Shown here piece after piece: positions 969 to 28,624 of a DNA stretch of 31,095 nucleotides. Position numbers and translations under genes: made by a program. The first letter of the stretch is position 1. The number at the start of each line of letters is the position of its first letter. Source of the stretch: a virus. The notes under the pieces are model-generated. The model was not told the origin of the DNA. It did not search any database and was given only the letters and a program-made list of their open reading frames with translations. The stretch lies in the IMG/VR virus record IMGVR_UViG_3300046010_008003, positions 1 through 31,095 of that record, one strand, 5' to 3'.

Positions 969-2096
969 TTAGATTATGTATATTTGACGAGGCATTGCCC
1001 TAAACTTGAGTTGTTTATTTAAATTTTCAGCCAACAATGCCTCTCTTTCCATGACCTTTTCAGGTTTTAGTCTTGTGAGTCTACCATCGGCACCAATGAG
1101 TTCCTCAATTAATTTTGATTTTTCATCTTTTGCTTCAGTAGATAAAGATGTATAATCCATACTTAAATCACCATCAGGTGTTTTTAAACTACCGCTAAAT
1201 TTACCTCTAACTCTTGCTAATGTTTCTTTACAATAAGCGGTGAACCATCTTCTAACCCAAATTTGAGCAGGATTGTTTAAATCATACCAACTCGTCTTTT
1301 CAAATGGTACATCAGATGGTAATTTAATAATATCAGGATTATCTTTTAGACATTGATCTCTATCCCCGTCTGTGGTATCATAATACCAATACCAAACTTG
1401 ACCTTTTGCTAATTCAGAATTCCCAAAATCAAATTTACCACCTGGAGTATTTAAAAGGTGTAATGCCTTTTTACCCTCGGGAAGAGCGGTGATATAATAA
1501 GTTAACTCACCCGCAAATATCCTTCTTTGTATGTTTACTTCTTGCATTCTAAGTAAAGTGTCAAATGCTGGTGTCAAATAATAACTTCCGGCCATATTAC
1601 CAATTTGAGCAAGACCACCTCCACCACCTAATCCAGTTCCTGTACCAATACCGGCAAAACCACCTAAACCAAACATTAAATTATTAAGAGTTGCGGGTGT
1701 AAACCATAAAATTTCATTTAACTCACGACCTGCTGGAATTTCATATATTTGTTGGTTAGGTACTAACTGAACAAAGTCTTTTTTAATTACCCAATCACCG
1801 CCAGCTTGTAGACCGACAATTTTGGAATAAGCATAAGTGTATCTGGTTTCCCAATCCAAACTTTTTGTGATAAATGCTCGAGATAAAGATTGAGTATCCA
1901 AATTTAAATTGTATAGTGATGTCCACTGAGATTCTATCAACCAATCTTGGACATATTGTGAGTAGTCGTCGATAGCATACTCTAAAAGGGTGTCCATCAT
2001 TTCATCCTCAAGTTCCACAGATCTCAAAGGTGCTCCCAATAAGTGTCTTACTTTTTGGTAAAATTGATTTCTTTCCGGTTCGTTAATTACAGCCAT
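969..2096 (-). CDS. gp13: Neck (head-tail connector) protein, T4 gp13-like
   Basis: A 375-residue homologue of the T4 neck protein gp13, which forms the collar under the portal, closes the DNA-filled head and receives the tail. The N-terminus shows the family pattern: a helix ending in HLLGAP, then SVELEDEMMDTLLEYAIDDY and SQYVQDW, matching the LGAP...VEI...AI..F.QY layout of T4 gp13. The C-terminal half has WVRRWFTAYCKETLARVRGKF, matching the Y...L.KK.W...L.KF helix of the family. It is longer than T4 gp13 (about 309 residues), partly through a glycine-rich insertion around residues 142-170 (GLGGFAGIGTGTGLGGGGG). A TATTTATA motif lies 12 bases before the ATG. In T4, genes 13, 14 and 15 are contiguous; here this gene is inverted and separated from the gp14/gp15-like genes by two unrelated genes. 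Confidence 0.82.
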   Translation of the reverse strand: MAVINEPERNQFYQKVRHLLGAPLRSVELEDEMMDTLLEYAIDDYSQYVQDWLIESQWTSLYNLNLDTQSLSRAFITKSLDWETRYTYAYSKIVGLQAGGDWVIKKDFVQLVPNQQIYEIPAGRELNEILWFTPATLNNLMFGLGGFAGIGTGTGLGGGGGLAQIGNMAGSYYLTPAFDTLLRMQEVNIQRRIFAGELTYYITALPEGKKALHLLNTPGGKFDFGNSELAKGQVWYWYYDTTDGDRDQCLKDNPDIIKLPSDVPFEKTSWYDLNNPAQIWVRRWFTAYCKETLARVRGKFSGSLKTPDGDLSMDYTSLSTEAKDEKSKLIEELIGADGRLTRLKPEKVMEREALLAENLNKQLKFRAMPRQIYII

Positions 2097-2133: not shown

Positions 2134-4323
2134 TTAAATAGGACAAATTACATATTTCTTTTCGTCAGGCGGTACAGTTAAATCAAGATTTTCCAAAGTA
2201 TCTTCATCAACATATTTGTAACCATTAACAACATTAAATTCTGGGTTAATTCTAAATCTTATTGCCAACCTCTTTTCATCACAACCTCGTTGTCCTTTGT
2301 TTGACCAATAAAGTTCGATGTATTTTGTTGGTACGATAAATTCTTCATCATAAATTATCCCACCCATTTGATCTTTAACTTTTTCTAAATATTTTTCTGC
2401 CTGAACATTAGTATCTAACCAAGTGTAAATTTTATCAATTAATTCATTATAAAGTTTTCCAATAACACCTCTTTGGTCGATGTTTTCAGTTTGTTTAAAA
2501 ATTGAAAAGAATTCAGATAGATAACTATCAATAAATGGATCTAATTTTTTTATTTCAAAATTTGTTCCTGACGGAAAAATAACGTTACCTTCTTTGTCTT
2601 TTAAATCTTCGGTCGACTCCACATCCGCCTTTATGTAATACGTCCCACTTTTGAACGAGTTAACAAGACAATTTGTTATTCTAAAAAAAAGAAAATTTAA
2701 AGTTTGTTCTTCATTATGAACTTTTAATAATGTATCAACTAATTTTTCTTTTGCGTCATCACTACAATGATAATTTAATTGTAGCCTCGTTGATTTTTTT
2801 TTGAAGTGTTTTCCCTCAAACCTTTTCTCATATTTGGCGTATTCTTTGGCTCTTGCCGCTCTCAATAAGTCTTCGGTATCGTTAGGTATTGATTTAGTAT
2901 TTTTTTGTTTTCTTAAAATTTTTCTTGTTTCATCCTCAGTAAAATCTTCATTATCAATGAAGTCTGAAATTAATTTTAAAAATTCTCCTGTTTTTTCTTT
3001 ACTAACTAAAGAAAGATCAACAATCGTTGGAAACATACCAACATTTTTGAATCTATAAAAATTATTTAATCTTTCTATTGATGTATCAATGAGTTCTGTT
3101 ACTTTCTCGTCTTGAATTGATTTTCTAAACGATAGTAATTTACAAAAAGAAGAATCTTCATTTTTTGATTTTATACATAAAGATTCTAACGTCGTATATT
3201 TTTTTATTCGATTTTCTGTTATAGATTCTTTAAGTTGTTGTTTTTTTTTGTGTAAATTATAAAGCTCCTCAACAAATTCCCAATTTACGTGGTCCCAAAA
3301 TTTAGAAATGTATTCATCTCTTTTATTCTGATATTTTAAATAATATGCGTGTTCCCAAACATCAAGACCCAGTAATGGATGTCCTCCACCCTTAATAATA
3401 TTCATAAGGGGATTATCTTGATTTGGTGTGGACATAATTTTTAGTTTACCATCTTTGGCTAAATATAACCAAGCCCATCCCGAACCAAAACGATCTTGGG
3501 CTGATTGATTAAATTCATCTTTTAATTTTTTTATATTACCAAAATCACTTTTAATCTTTTTTAACATTTCACCTTTTGGTAATTGTTTTTTTGGTGATAA
3601 CATTTTCCAAAATAATGCATGGTTAAAAGCGCCTCCTGCGTTATTTCTAACTTTATCATCAAATTTACTAATTGATTTGATTATTTCCTCAAGACTTATA
3701 TCCCCATCTTTATCTTTAAGAGCCTTGTTTAATTTTTGTACGTAACCTTTGTAATGTTTGTTATAATGAACATTCATAGTTTTTGAATCTATGAAACGTG
3801 ATAAGGAAGAATATGAGTACGGCAATTTTTCAATGCCTATTTTTTTCATTTCAACAATTAAGTTCTCCTTGACTGATGATTTTTCATTTAAAATAATTGA
3901 TTCTAATAAAACATTTGTTTTTTTCTCTAATTTAGATTCGTACATTTTTTTTTCTAAATCAGGATGTTCTTTTTCAAATTGTTTAATTAATCTACCGGCC
4001 TCAGAATTTGCCTCATTTTCATTCTTACCACCAATATCTTTTCCGTGTCTTCTACCTAAAATAGTCATTTGATATTCGTGAACCCATTCGTGTGCAAGTG
4101 TTCTCATAATGTCACGATTTAATCTATCCTTAGCAAGAATTTTAAGTTTGTGTTTTGAGGTTCGTGATCCCGTTGACATTTCACCATATCTTTCACCGAC
4201 AAACTCAATTGATAAATCTTCTTTTAATGGAAATTCTTTCTGTAAAAATTTGAGAAATTTGAATACAAAGTCCTTGTCCTTTTTCTCAAACTTATCACTC
4301 GTATATTTAATGTTCACTTTCAT
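2134..4323 (-). CDS. Three-module protein: HExxH metallopeptidase-like domain, Mn-type superoxide dismutase domain, unknown C-terminal domain
   Basis: A 729-residue protein. Residues 1-125 contain HEWVH at 78-82 in a predicted helix, and an ENEAN...A segment near 102-110 that could supply a third metal ligand (E104), as in ImmA/IrrE-like or other gluzincin-type zinc peptidases. Residues about 165-357 are a full Fe/Mn superoxide dismutase. H186, H235 (in NHALFW), D321 and H325 (in DVWEHAYY) are the four metal ligands, with H190 and Y194 at the positions of E. coli His30 and Tyr34, and GSGWAWL at 280-286. G231 four residues before H235, and Q302 in STPNQDNPLM, are MnSOD-type rather than FeSOD-type second-sphere residues. 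The SOD segment is bracketed by LLESIILNEK (139-148) and LKESITENRI (364-373). Residues 380-729 match nothing I recognise. SOD activity would detoxify superoxide; whether it acts in the cell or inside the virion is not shown. The ATG lies 15 bases after the helicase stop. Confidence 0.85.
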   Translation of the reverse strand: MKVNIKYTSDKFEKKDKDFVFKFLKFLQKEFPLKEDLSIEFVGERYGEMSTGSRTSKHKLKILAKDRLNRDIMRTLAHEWVHEYQMTILGRRHGKDIGGKNENEANSEAGRLIKQFEKEHPDLEKKMYESKLEKKTNVLLESIILNEKSSVKENLIVEMKKIGIEKLPYSYSSLSRFIDSKTMNVHYNKHYKGYVQKLNKALKDKDGDISLEEIIKSISKFDDKVRNNAGGAFNHALFWKMLSPKKQLPKGEMLKKIKSDFGNIKKLKDEFNQSAQDRFGSGWAWLYLAKDGKLKIMSTPNQDNPLMNIIKGGGHPLLGLDVWEHAYYLKYQNKRDEYISKFWDHVNWEFVEELYNLHKKKQQLKESITENRIKKYTTLESLCIKSKNEDSSFCKLLSFRKSIQDEKVTELIDTSIERLNNFYRFKNVGMFPTIVDLSLVSKEKTGEFLKLISDFIDNEDFTEDETRKILRKQKNTKSIPNDTEDLLRAARAKEYAKYEKRFEGKHFKKKSTRLQLNYHCSDDAKEKLVDTLLKVHNEEQTLNFLFFRITNCLVNSFKSGTYYIKADVESTEDLKDKEGNVIFPSGTNFEIKKLDPFIDSYLSEFFSIFKQTENIDQRGVIGKLYNELIDKIYTWLDTNVQAEKYLEKVKDQMGGIIYDEEFIVPTKYIELYWSNKGQRGCDEKRLAIRFRINPEFNVVNGYKYVDEDTLENLDLTVPPDEKKYVICPI

Positions 4324-4338: not shown

Positions 4339-6102
4339 CTATCGACCTTTATTTATCAATTTTAAAATTTCTTCAACAACATCACCACTATTTTCTATTG
4401 GTTGATCACCCATAACGGTATTAATAATTCTTTTCTTATTGTTTAAAATATCATAAATTGCACCCTCAATACTATTATCAAATAGTGGATAATAAACAAG
4501 AACATTTGATTTTTGACCATATCTGTACGCCCTATCTTCCGCTTGTGCATGTTCTGCGGGAACAAAAGATAAATCATTCATTATAACAACTTCAGCGGCG
4601 GTTAAAGTTAAACCAACACCGGCTGCCTTTAAATTACCAACAAAAACTTTAATTTTATCATCGTTTTGAAATGAGTCTACTGCTTGTTGACGTATTGCGT
4701 TTGAGCAACTACCATCAAGATAAACTGCTTGTTTACCAAAATGTTGATAGATACTTTGTAGTGTATCTGTAAAGTTTGTAAATATGATGACTTTTTTTCC
4801 TTGTTCTAAAATATTTTCGGTAAACTCTATAGTTTGATTTACTTTTTCATTCGCAATAACTTTTCTAACCTTCATTAGTTTTGAAAACTGAACTGTAAGA
4901 GATGAAGACTCATCGGGATTTTTATCATACCAATCATAGTATTCACCCATTAAATTTTCATATTCCTTAGACTGTAATCTTAAATAAACAGGTGTGATAA
5001 TTTTTTCAGGTAAATCTAAAACATCTTCTTTTAATCTTCTTAGTATTTGTTTTGATGTTCTATCCCTTAACTCCTCTAAATTGGAGGCTCCTGATACATT
5101 CCAAACTTTTCTTTTACCGGCATTAAATTGATATCCCTGACAGTATCGGATGGCATACGCCATCCAATTCTGTGCCACGGGACTTTCGATGATACTCAAA
5201 AGATTATAGTAGTTCATAGGTCTTGATGTCATAGGTGTACCAGTCAATAACCAAACTCTTTTAATGTTTTTAACAAAACTGTTAATGATTTTTGTTCTTT
5301 GTGCTTGGGCGTTTGAAATCATGTGTGCCTCATCTAAAATAACCAAATCAAAATTTGATTTTATTAATAACGAGTTTTCTTTATCTTTTGTATCGTGGAA
5401 ATTCTTTAATATGTCGTAGTTTATAATAACAAAATCAGATTCAGTTGAGTATTTTTTTCCTTCTGCAATAAAAACAGATCTATCTGAATAATTTGCAATT
5501 TCTCTTTCCCAATTTATCTTAAGTGATGCGGGACAAACAATTAATATTTTTTTTGCATTTGTTTCTAAGGCAGCAATAATTGTTGACGTAGTCTTGCCAA
5601 GACCCATATCATCAGCTAAAATAAATCTCTTTGATCCAACTAATTTTTCTATTGCTTCTTTTTGATGACTCAACGGGGGACGGTGTCCATATTTTGAGTA
5701 GTCTATTTCAACCGTTTTAATAATATGAGTTTTAATAAGTGCGGATTTTGGAATCCAAAACTCTGAAAGTTTATCAGATTCAAAAAATTTACCCCAAACG
5801 TGGTAAGATTTTTCCTTTTCCACCAAAAGTTTTTCAATGTATATTTGTTCTGGTACTTGTAAAAGATATCTTTCTTCGGCAAACTTTTTGGCGAAATATG
5901 TGTCTAACTCAACCCATTTTCTGGCAACCTTTGGTAATACGTCGTAATATGTAATTATGTAATCGGATTGAGAACGAGTAGGGTAGAATTTTTTTGAAGA
6001 AAGTTTTTTCTGTTGCAAATAAAGAATATAGTTATTTGCACCCGAATAAGTGTCGAGCAACTCAAGAGCTTTGTGTTCTAAAAGTGTTTGTATATTTTCC
6101 AA
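4339..6102 (-). CDS. SNF2-family DNA helicase/translocase
   Basis: A 587-residue superfamily 2 ATPase of the SNF2 type, with a full motif set. Motif I is DDMGLGKT (164-171), Ia lies near VCPASLKINWER (189-200), II is DEAH (257-260) and III is LTGTP (286-290). Motif V is AAGVGLTLTAA (493-503) and VI is QAEDRAYRYGQ (520-530). The RYGQ ending and the LSHQKEAIEKL entry are typical of SMARCAL1/HepA-like SNF2 proteins rather than T4 UvsW, though a similar role in fork remodelling or recombination is plausible. Residues 1-135 are an N-terminal extension without recognisable motifs. The only in-frame initiator before the conserved part is TTG at 6102; the frame is closed by TAA at 6112-6114, so a TTG start is chosen. 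It is first in the minus-strand block and divergent from the gp14-like gene. Confidence 0.9.
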   Translation of the reverse strand: MENIQTLLEHKALELLDTYSGANNYILYLQQKKLSSKKFYPTRSQSDYIITYYDVLPKVARKWVELDTYFAKKFAEERYLLQVPEQIYIEKLLVEKEKSYHVWGKFFESDKLSEFWIPKSALIKTHIIKTVEIDYSKYGHRPPLSHQKEAIEKLVGSKRFILADDMGLGKTTSTIIAALETNAKKILIVCPASLKINWEREIANYSDRSVFIAEGKKYSTESDFVIINYDILKNFHDTKDKENSLLIKSNFDLVILDEAHMISNAQAQRTKIINSFVKNIKRVWLLTGTPMTSRPMNYYNLLSIIESPVAQNWMAYAIRYCQGYQFNAGKRKVWNVSGASNLEELRDRTSKQILRRLKEDVLDLPEKIITPVYLRLQSKEYENLMGEYYDWYDKNPDESSSLTVQFSKLMKVRKVIANEKVNQTIEFTENILEQGKKVIIFTNFTDTLQSIYQHFGKQAVYLDGSCSNAIRQQAVDSFQNDDKIKVFVGNLKAAGVGLTLTAAEVVIMNDLSFVPAEHAQAEDRAYRYGQKSNVLVYYPLFDNSIEGAIYDILNNKKRIINTVMGDQPIENSGDVVEEILKLINKGR

Positions 6103-27704: not shown

Positions 27705-27712
27705 TATTTATA
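27705..27712 (+). promoter_or_regulatory. Putative late promoter motif for the small-protein / Pro-rich gene pair
   Basis: TATTTATA followed by ATAAAAAAACT, 11 bases before the ATG at 27724. Confidence 0.55.
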
Positions 27713-27723
27713 ATAAAAAAACT

Positions 27724-27948
27724 ATGAGCGTTAAATTAATATTAGACAATTACTTGGGTAAAAACACAAGAGTTTCTGAAAAAGATATGGGTGATGGTAC
27801 AAAACAAGTATGTGATTTAGATACTGGAGATTGTTACACCGTAAGAATGAAAGATGGATTGATTGAAAGGGTTGATAATACTATGAGAACTTTCAAAAAA
27901 ATACAAGTAGAGACCAATCATGGTATAAAAACTTTATTAAATGGTTAA
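27724..27948 (+). CDS. Hypothetical protein (74 residues)
   Basis: I do not recognise a family. It is a compact, charged protein with a DMGDGTKQVCDLDTGDCYTVRMKDG stretch that reads as two beta strands joined by a Cys-containing turn, then a basic C-terminus (MRTFKKIQVETNHGIKTLL). It has its own upstream TATTTATA motif. Its stop overlaps the ATG at 27941 of the following frame, so it is co-expressed with the Pro-rich protein. No membrane segment or signal peptide is visible. Confidence 0.65.
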   Translation: MSVKLILDNYLGKNTRVSEKDMGDGTKQVCDLDTGDCYTVRMKDGLIERVDNTMRTFKKIQVETNHGIKTLLNG

Positions 27949-27949
27949 A

Positions 27950-28624
27950 ATGAAATTAGATCAAAAAATACTTGAAGAGATAAAAAGATACAATAGTATC
28001 AATCAATATATTATGGAACAAGACGTTCCACCGGCAGAACCACCTCTACCTGAACCTGCAGGTGCTGATGCTGCATTACCACCACCTCCAGGTGGAGATG
28101 TTCCCCCACCACCGGCAGCTCCTGAGGCTGGACCAACACCAATAGATACGGCGACAGATCCTGAAGTTGAAGAAGTTGGAGTTGAAGATAGTACAACAAC
28201 AGAAGAAGGTGGAGAAGAAGAAACTGAAGAAATTGACATCACAGATTTGATTGATAATCAAAAAACTATGTCAGACAAACAAGAAGAGTACTTTAATAAT
28301 TTATTCGGTCAATTAGAAGATTTACAAGGAAAATTAGGGGAAATGGACCAACTAGTGCAAAAATTAAATTCTATTGAAGCTAAAGTTGATAGTTACAAAC
28401 CTAAAACTCCTGAAGAAAAATTAGAATTAAGATCTTTAGATTCTGGACCCTTCAAACAAAAACTATCTGATTTCTTTGAGGACAAAATGGTTGAAATGGA
28501 AAAATCAGGAAAAAATGAATATGTTTTAACATCGGACGAAGTCGAAAATTATAATCCATCTGACGTTCAAAAATCCTTTGATGATGGAATCGCACCTTTT
28601 GATCCTGAAATTTATTATAAATAA
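27950..28624 (+). CDS. Pro-rich, acidic, helical protein (possible scaffold or internal head protein)
   Basis: A 224-residue protein if started at the ATG at 27950; an ATG three codons earlier (27941) overlaps the preceding stop and is equally possible. It has four zones: an N-terminal amphipathic helix (MKLDQKILEEIKRYNSI), a Pro/Ala-rich segment at 27-64 with PPPP runs, an acidic Glu/Thr segment at 65-100, and a helical, probably coiled-coil, segment at 105-150. A short folded C-terminus ends in DPEIYYK. The N-terminus resembles the T4 capsid-targeting peptide plan (helix with an I/L-x-E site, here ILE and IME), and acidic coiled-coil proteins serve as prohead core in T4. That role is inference; no family is recognised. 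A strong terminator follows directly. Confidence 0.7.
   Translation: MKLDQKILEEIKRYNSINQYIMEQDVPPAEPPLPEPAGADAALPPPPGGDVPPPPAAPEAGPTPIDTATDPEVEEVGVEDSTTTEEGGEEETEEIDITDLIDNQKTMSDKQEEYFNNLFGQLEDLQGKLGEMDQLVQKLNSIEAKVDSYKPKTPEEKLELRSLDSGPFKQKLSDFFEDKMVEMEKSGKNEYVLTSDEVENYNPSDVQKSFDDGIAPFDPEIYYK

Follow-up and report, generated by a model that had tools for sequence, protein, structure and literature searches.

Phage-encoded superoxide dismutases (SODs), capsid-targeted cargo proteins and SODs in giant-virus particles (PMC9405923) are all known already. The T4 prohead protease gp21 cleaves behind L/I-x-E, and a leader of 10 residues is sufficient to get a protein packaged in the head (PMC9026906). 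In the SodFM family of Fe/Mn SODs, a C-terminal Gln together with Gly or Ala at the residue termed XD-2 tracks a preference for Mn, a correlation that is strong, not absolute (PMC10172142). Moraphages, jumbo phages of aquatic habitats, have predicted hosts among the Bacteroidota (PMC12619734). A search of the open-access literature for phage SODs in virions returned no study, and an SOD that is also capsid-targeted cargo and a core gene with exchangeable modules turned up neither there nor in the annotated phage collection. Here we describe a 31,095-nt stretch of viral DNA (IMG/VR record IMGVR_UViG_3300046010_008003; the window hereafter) encoding a 729-residue protein in which an SOD domain is flanked by leader-like linkers, a HExxH domain and a C-terminal module (Table 1).

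The superoxide dismutase domain and its flanking modules

We find that ORF 2134-4323 has the domains and the metal ligands by which a sequence is assigned to the SodFM family. Pfam matches Sod_Fe_N (PF00081) to residues 165-243 (E 1.1e-20, 74.4 bits against a curated cut-off of 27) and Sod_Fe_C (PF02777) to residues 249-353 (E 6.6e-40, 135.7 bits against a curated cut-off of 20.9), and the best PDB match to the ORF by phmmer is the Sphingobacterium MnSOD 6gsc (E 2.4e-64). A sequence-only reading of this DNA had named H186, H235, D321 and H325 as ligands with spacings of 49, 86 and 4 residues, all of which are correct in the translated ORF, and GSGWAWL, VNWEF, G231 and Q302 lie at the positions it gave. 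It had also proposed a Sod_Fe_N/Sod_Fe_C profile search and a structure prediction as checks, and both agree with it, the former as above and the latter through a predicted SOD domain for which Foldseek gives E 1.5e-19 and a TM on target of 0.86 against solved MnSODs, with 48% identity and an rmsd of 2.6 over 201 columns, so that the two-domain SOD fold is present in the predicted model. By the published correlations, Q302 and G319 together predict a preference for Mn. Judged from the sequence, the identity of the enzyme is close to certain, and the predicted SOD activity is very probable. The interval given by the sequence-only reading, 3253-3831, covers the SOD domain, but the feature extends over the entire ORF; the HExxH domain, both linkers and the exchangeable C-terminal modules had been overlooked. 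Its remark that no phage protein of this architecture is known stands among the annotated phage records of the collection.

Table 1 Features of the SOD locus, in window coordinates
Feature	Position	Strand	Basis
Whole ORF, 729 aa	2134..4323	-	HExxH domain + leader-like linker + SOD + second linker + C-terminal module
Metallopeptidase-like domain, residues 1-125	3949..4323	-	invariant motifs; missing from some relatives
HExxH motif, H78-E-W-V-H82	4078..4092	-	conservation
Leader-like linker, residues 126-158	3850..3948	-	(L/I)xE at E141, E147, E158; low-confidence helix in model
Mn-type Fe/Mn superoxide dismutase domain (SodFM family), residues 159-358	3250..3849	-	Pfam, phmmer, conservation, fold
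Metal ligand H186	3766..3768	-	conservation; aligned with MnSOD ligand
Metal ligand H235	3619..3621	-	conservation; MnSOD alignment
Metal ligand D321 (XD-2 residue: G319, per PMC10172142)	3361..3363	-	conservation; MnSOD alignment
Metal ligand H325 (WEHAYY)	3349..3351	-	conservation; MnSOD alignment
Second linker, residues 359-372	3208..3249	-	(L/I)xE at E366, E370
Exchangeable C-terminal module, residues 373-729	2137..3207	-	invariant KAD...FExKK; separate gene in L234/L235/L237
Neck / head-tail adaptor gene, downstream of SOD	969..2096	-	phrog_211 E 2.9e-10; conserved neighbour
SNF2/UvsW-type helicase gene, upstream of SOD	4339..6102	-	profile matches; conserved neighbour
TATTTAT element just before SOD start codon	4329..4335	-	present before 30/37 SOD genes

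Full-length relatives of the ORF occur in other metagenome contigs at 56-85% identity, and across the wider set of relatives the SOD core is constant and the remainder modular. Some proteins consist of the HExxH domain and SOD (about 364 aa), some extend this pair with a C-module, of which there are at least four unrelated types, some join SOD to a C-module without the HExxH domain, and some are SOD alone behind a leader (257-262 aa). In the HExxH domain, HEWVH and IGGxNE(D/N)EAN do not vary across 23 rows except at the D/N position, with H78, E79, H82, E102 and E104 fixed throughout, which places an acidic candidate zinc ligand downstream of the HExxH. The domain gives a weak Pfam SprT-like match (E 0.052, below the cut-off) and no PDB match. 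A hypothetical protein of cyanophage S-SRM01 (L256, 164797-165195) is 34% identical to its residues 51-123, and is free-standing among replication genes.

The C-module of the window type is a separate 381-aa gene in three loci (L234, L235 and L237), and a wider scan with this module alone returned two loci, both already known. It has no match in Pfam, NCBIfam, PADLOC or PDB sequences; the best Foldseek hit to its predicted fold is to designed helical repeats (E 0.19), and VIA-align likewise returns only rows of the designed-helical-repeat type, which cover residues 1-123 and leave the strand-rich half outside. The L022-type C-module also has no match. Invariant D...(E/Q)xK-like residues in the C-modules recall PD-(D/E)XK nucleases, a resemblance that is only a lead, as there is no match to a nuclease family profile and, for the window module, none to the fold.

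Conservation, ancestry and gene order

A scan of IMG/VR yielded 223 stretches encoding relatives, from which 79 distinct loci were kept, and conservation was read from 37 non-redundant representatives of the family, including a frameshifted copy without its first part. Save for the missing part of that copy, the four His-His-Asp-His ligands are invariant in all 37, as are the gateway pair H190/Y194, G231, Q302, G319 and WEH. The dN/dS of the SOD is about 0.05, with dS near saturation, which indicates that it is under purifying selection. This, together with the Pfam, phmmer, conservation and fold results, bears out the earlier claim of an intact MnSOD-type enzyme in a tailed phage. At L054 (8001-10145) the SOD gene is in two ORFs with a break around residues 190-209, reflecting a sequencing error or a broken copy.

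In a maximum-likelihood tree, 26 phage SODs form one clade (support 100/100) beside sequences from Bacteroidota and Ignavibacteria, though the bacterial rows were picked by similarity and the donor is therefore only indicated. A single acquisition from a Bacteroidota-like donor may thus lie behind the SOD, which a group of large T4-like phages would since have passed on as a core gene. Among isolates, the phages whose major head proteins come closest to that of G001, a 272-kb relative, are Flavobacterium and Microcystis phages, besides one metagenomic phage, and a Bacteroidota host is likely for the phage group. Public records required some care: MW462191 was rejected as a phage relative on account of its bacterial-looking neighbours, and several matches in unannotated 'Staphylococcus/Enterococcus/Salmonella phage' records were left out for their high identity to host-type SODs.

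The related loci share a near-invariant gene order of sheath, two small genes, helicase, SOD, neck and small gene. A search with the neck protein, blind to SOD, finds the SOD between helicase and neck in 72 of 76 new loci, a fraction that is a description and not a rate, since many of these loci are near copies. The SOD is a nearly universal core gene of this phage group and not a singular oddity, a point that the sequence-only reading had missed. The four exceptions (L230, L231, L233 and L245) have no SOD and carry stand-alone C-terminal module genes between helicase and neck, accompanied in L233 and L245 by an HNH-endonuclease-like gene. One or two small unrelated genes of about 115-235 aa, varying among loci, lie between helicase and SOD in L025, L031, L046, L049, L059, L061-L069 and others. 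The tail sheath of the window (8001-11351) is 1116 aa long, with matches to sheath families in its last 210 residues only and a long insertion rich in TPTPTP.

TATTTAT precedes 30 of 37 SOD genes, against 1.5 expected by shuffling, and stands ahead of many genes of the 272-kb relative, including sheath, neck and protease. The element TATTTATA recurs throughout that genome on the coding strand, from a few to about 40 bases ahead of many start codons (42 of 267 upstream stretches, against 8 expected by base shuffling), and is found in the window at 2109-2116, 12319-12326, 13839-13846, 15721-15728 and 27705-27712. The element could be a phage promoter or a translation element, a hint that the SOD may be expressed together with virion genes.

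Linkers, leaders and head machinery

Both linkers of the window protein carry (L/I)xE, and the first is modelled at a pLDDT of about 40 over residues 130-159. We find, across 36 clusters at 85% identity and with 1000 shuffles, 118 such sites in the first linker against 61 ± 6 expected and 54 in the second against 20 ± 4, counts that 0 of 1000 shuffles reach in either case. Sequence kinship inflates these statistics, the clusters being less independent than the shuffles assume, and amphipathic helices favour some patterns. In the N-, SOD and C-domains the motif is at chance level or below. Among control patterns in the second linker, [LI]xE has a z of 8.8 and the next highest 4.6; in the first linker, LL pairs bring [LI]xxE to the level of [LI]xE, and part of that signal may be a helix pattern.

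The position of the sites is also constrained. Every one of the 36 clusters has a [LIV]-x-E nine residues ahead of LPY (with V in a few of them), whose glutamate, E158, is invariant: the residue after it is mostly Met, but E158 is also kept where that residue is A, G or I. Met is an unusual residue to follow a putative cut; a relic start codon is another possible reading of M159. Relatives without a C-module end just before the first (L/I)xE site of the second linker. The HExxH-less forms begin with a leader of 25-35 residues, e.g. MKNLESKAELLKEEIILQEKKDNQNFLITE, followed directly by the SOD start MKRIGIDKLPYSYSSL, and this leader stretch is what forms the internal linker in the window protein.

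In the 272-kb relative, too, (L/I)xE is concentrated at protein N-termini. In the first 35 residues of its 256 predicted proteins, [LI]xE occurs 199 times against 127 (z 7.4), with every other residue and spacing pattern tested at |z| < 3.5 and no excess of [LI]xE at residues 60-95. Recurrent leaders such as MKRIIRLTESDLARIVKRVIKE and MKIIITESQ are found at 27 of 267 N-termini versus 1 of 238 internal stretches, a contrast that is descriptive because the patterns were drawn up after viewing the N-termini; the composition test is unaffected. The leader families in this genome (L083-L097) read MKRIIRLTESDLxRIVKRVIxE, MKIIITExQ and MNLQEQIxR..., and sit on dozens of proteins annotated mostly without function, which offer a list of candidate injected proteins. 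One of the leader types of G001, MKILISESQ, recurs at the start, MKILISESQLVRLTE, of the stand-alone window-type C-module in L234, L235 and L237; judged from these genes, the C-module follows a leader where it is a gene of its own and a (L/I)xE linker where it is fused. In the window, the proteins at 27941-28624 and 11366-12247 have helical N-termini with (L/I)xE (INQYIMEQD and FVKEIISEII) and are candidates for a leader of this kind.

A T4-type prohead protease (Peptidase_S77 / phrog_207) is present in G001, G007 and G026, all three of which carry the SOD. In G001 it adjoins the gene for the major head protein (phrog_138), in which SFLINE-ASSDG near residue 60 occupies the place of the gp23 site (FLINE|A). 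No protease is found in the window or in most related contigs, which as fragments (31 kb for the window) are uninformative on this point. Searches of isolated phages by tblastn give no match for the class-A leader peptide or for the neck protein, and hence no isolate with known virion proteins to serve as a control.

Proposed packaged cargo, rival readings and known systems

We propose, as a reading that we hold to be reasonably probable, that an active MnSOD is made as packaged, protease-processed head cargo and then ejected. The phage would encode an active, Mn-preferring SodFM enzyme with the stretch before the SOD as its capsid-targeting leader; a gp21-type prohead protease would cut after (L/I)xE in the first and second linkers, releasing the SOD and its fused modules inside the head; and the cargo would leave with the DNA, removing superoxide in the new host, or would protect the packaged genome. 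Metal, activity, packaging, cleavage, ejection and benefit are all what we infer from these comparisons. HExxH-bearing proteins have no N-terminal leader of their own, so in them targeting would have to act from inside the chain. An extension of this scheme, in which the chain is a multi-enzyme precursor of peptidase, SOD and exchangeable (perhaps nuclease) module that is head-targeted, cut by the protease and injected at the start of infection, is tentative and somewhat doubtful.

The sequence-only reading had offered protection of the infected cell and packaging in the particle as equal options; we keep both, but not at equal weight, because the (L/I)xE linkers, the T4-type protease of relatives and the leader-bearing stand-alone modules favour packaging. 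An ordinary auxiliary metabolic SOD, acting unpackaged in the infected cell until lysis and with linkers that are simply flexible helices, is a rather unlikely explanation that nonetheless has precedent: the stress genes found in freshwater phages include SODs and are read as an aid to the infected cell (PMC6802176), jumbo phages have free-standing sodB, and a catalytic enzyme is useful without packaging. Against it, accessory metabolic genes are usually patchy, whereas this SOD is found in almost all loci at a fixed place next to the neck gene, and the (L/I)xE linkers, the invariant E158 and the leaders of the stand-alone modules would be left unexplained. The junction of E158 and M159 might instead mark an ancestral start, the SOD having once been a separate gene (MKKIGIEKLPY) and perhaps still being initiated internally, without proteolysis. 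M159 is indeed kept in most clusters, at the position where cellular SODs begin, but E158 remains fixed before A, G or I, and the HExxH-less loci retain their 25-35 residues ahead of the junction, which makes this reading improbable.

The adjacency of the neck gene and the fusion to other modules would also suit a non-catalytic role in which the SOD fold is a dimerisation module of neck or head and enzyme function is incidental. We regard this as highly improbable, as such a role would not demand invariance of all ligands and second-sphere residues, and four loci do without any SOD. Several public 'phage' SOD matches do resemble host DNA, MW462191 among them, but dozens of independent contigs that also encode sheath, neck and helicase show the same architecture and gene order, a recurrence that rules out an assembly artefact, a chimera or bacterial contamination, to which we assign a negligible probability.

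If packaged, the SOD would be an oxidative defence that phages carry into the cell themselves, or a shield for their DNA in sunlit water, and 'auxiliary metabolic gene' would be the wrong label for at least this SOD; it would also raise the question of whether superoxide meets the incoming phage in Bacteroidota. From sequence alone, the (L/I)xE leader signal also offers a means of listing the injected proteins, mostly annotated without function, of a widespread uncultivated phage group.

The MnSOD of Sphingobacterium sp. T2 (PDB 6gsc, 5a9g) shares with the phage domain its fold, the four ligands, the second-sphere Gln and Gly and 48% domain identity; the phage SOD differs in being embedded, together with a leader and linkers, in a longer chain, and all phage copies fall in a clade of their own. 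The free-standing sodB of Pseudomonas phages PA5oct, MIJ3 and Callisto and of Vibrio phage 2.275 is likewise an Fe/Mn SOD of a large tailed phage, but is only about 30% identical, with matches that span only the SOD part of the query. Among giant amoebal viruses, Megavirus has a Cu,Zn-SOD that is reported to be one of the virion enzymes, as protection on entry (PMC9405923), although enzyme family and virus are unrelated and the host is eukaryotic. The 272-kb relative is similar to Moraphages in size range, habitat and core genes (prohead protease, gp13 neck, UvsW, ClpA), a resemblance and not an assigned membership; the Moraphage paper does not mention superoxide or dismutase (PMC12619734). 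With the T4 internal head proteins IPI, IPII, IPIII and Alt (PMC9026906), the system described here has in common the (L/I)xE cut motif, a T4-type protease and major head protein in related contigs, and a putative cargo of varied content; unlike theirs, the putative leader of the phage SOD is longer, of other sequence and often internal, and the cargo would be a metabolic antioxidant enzyme.
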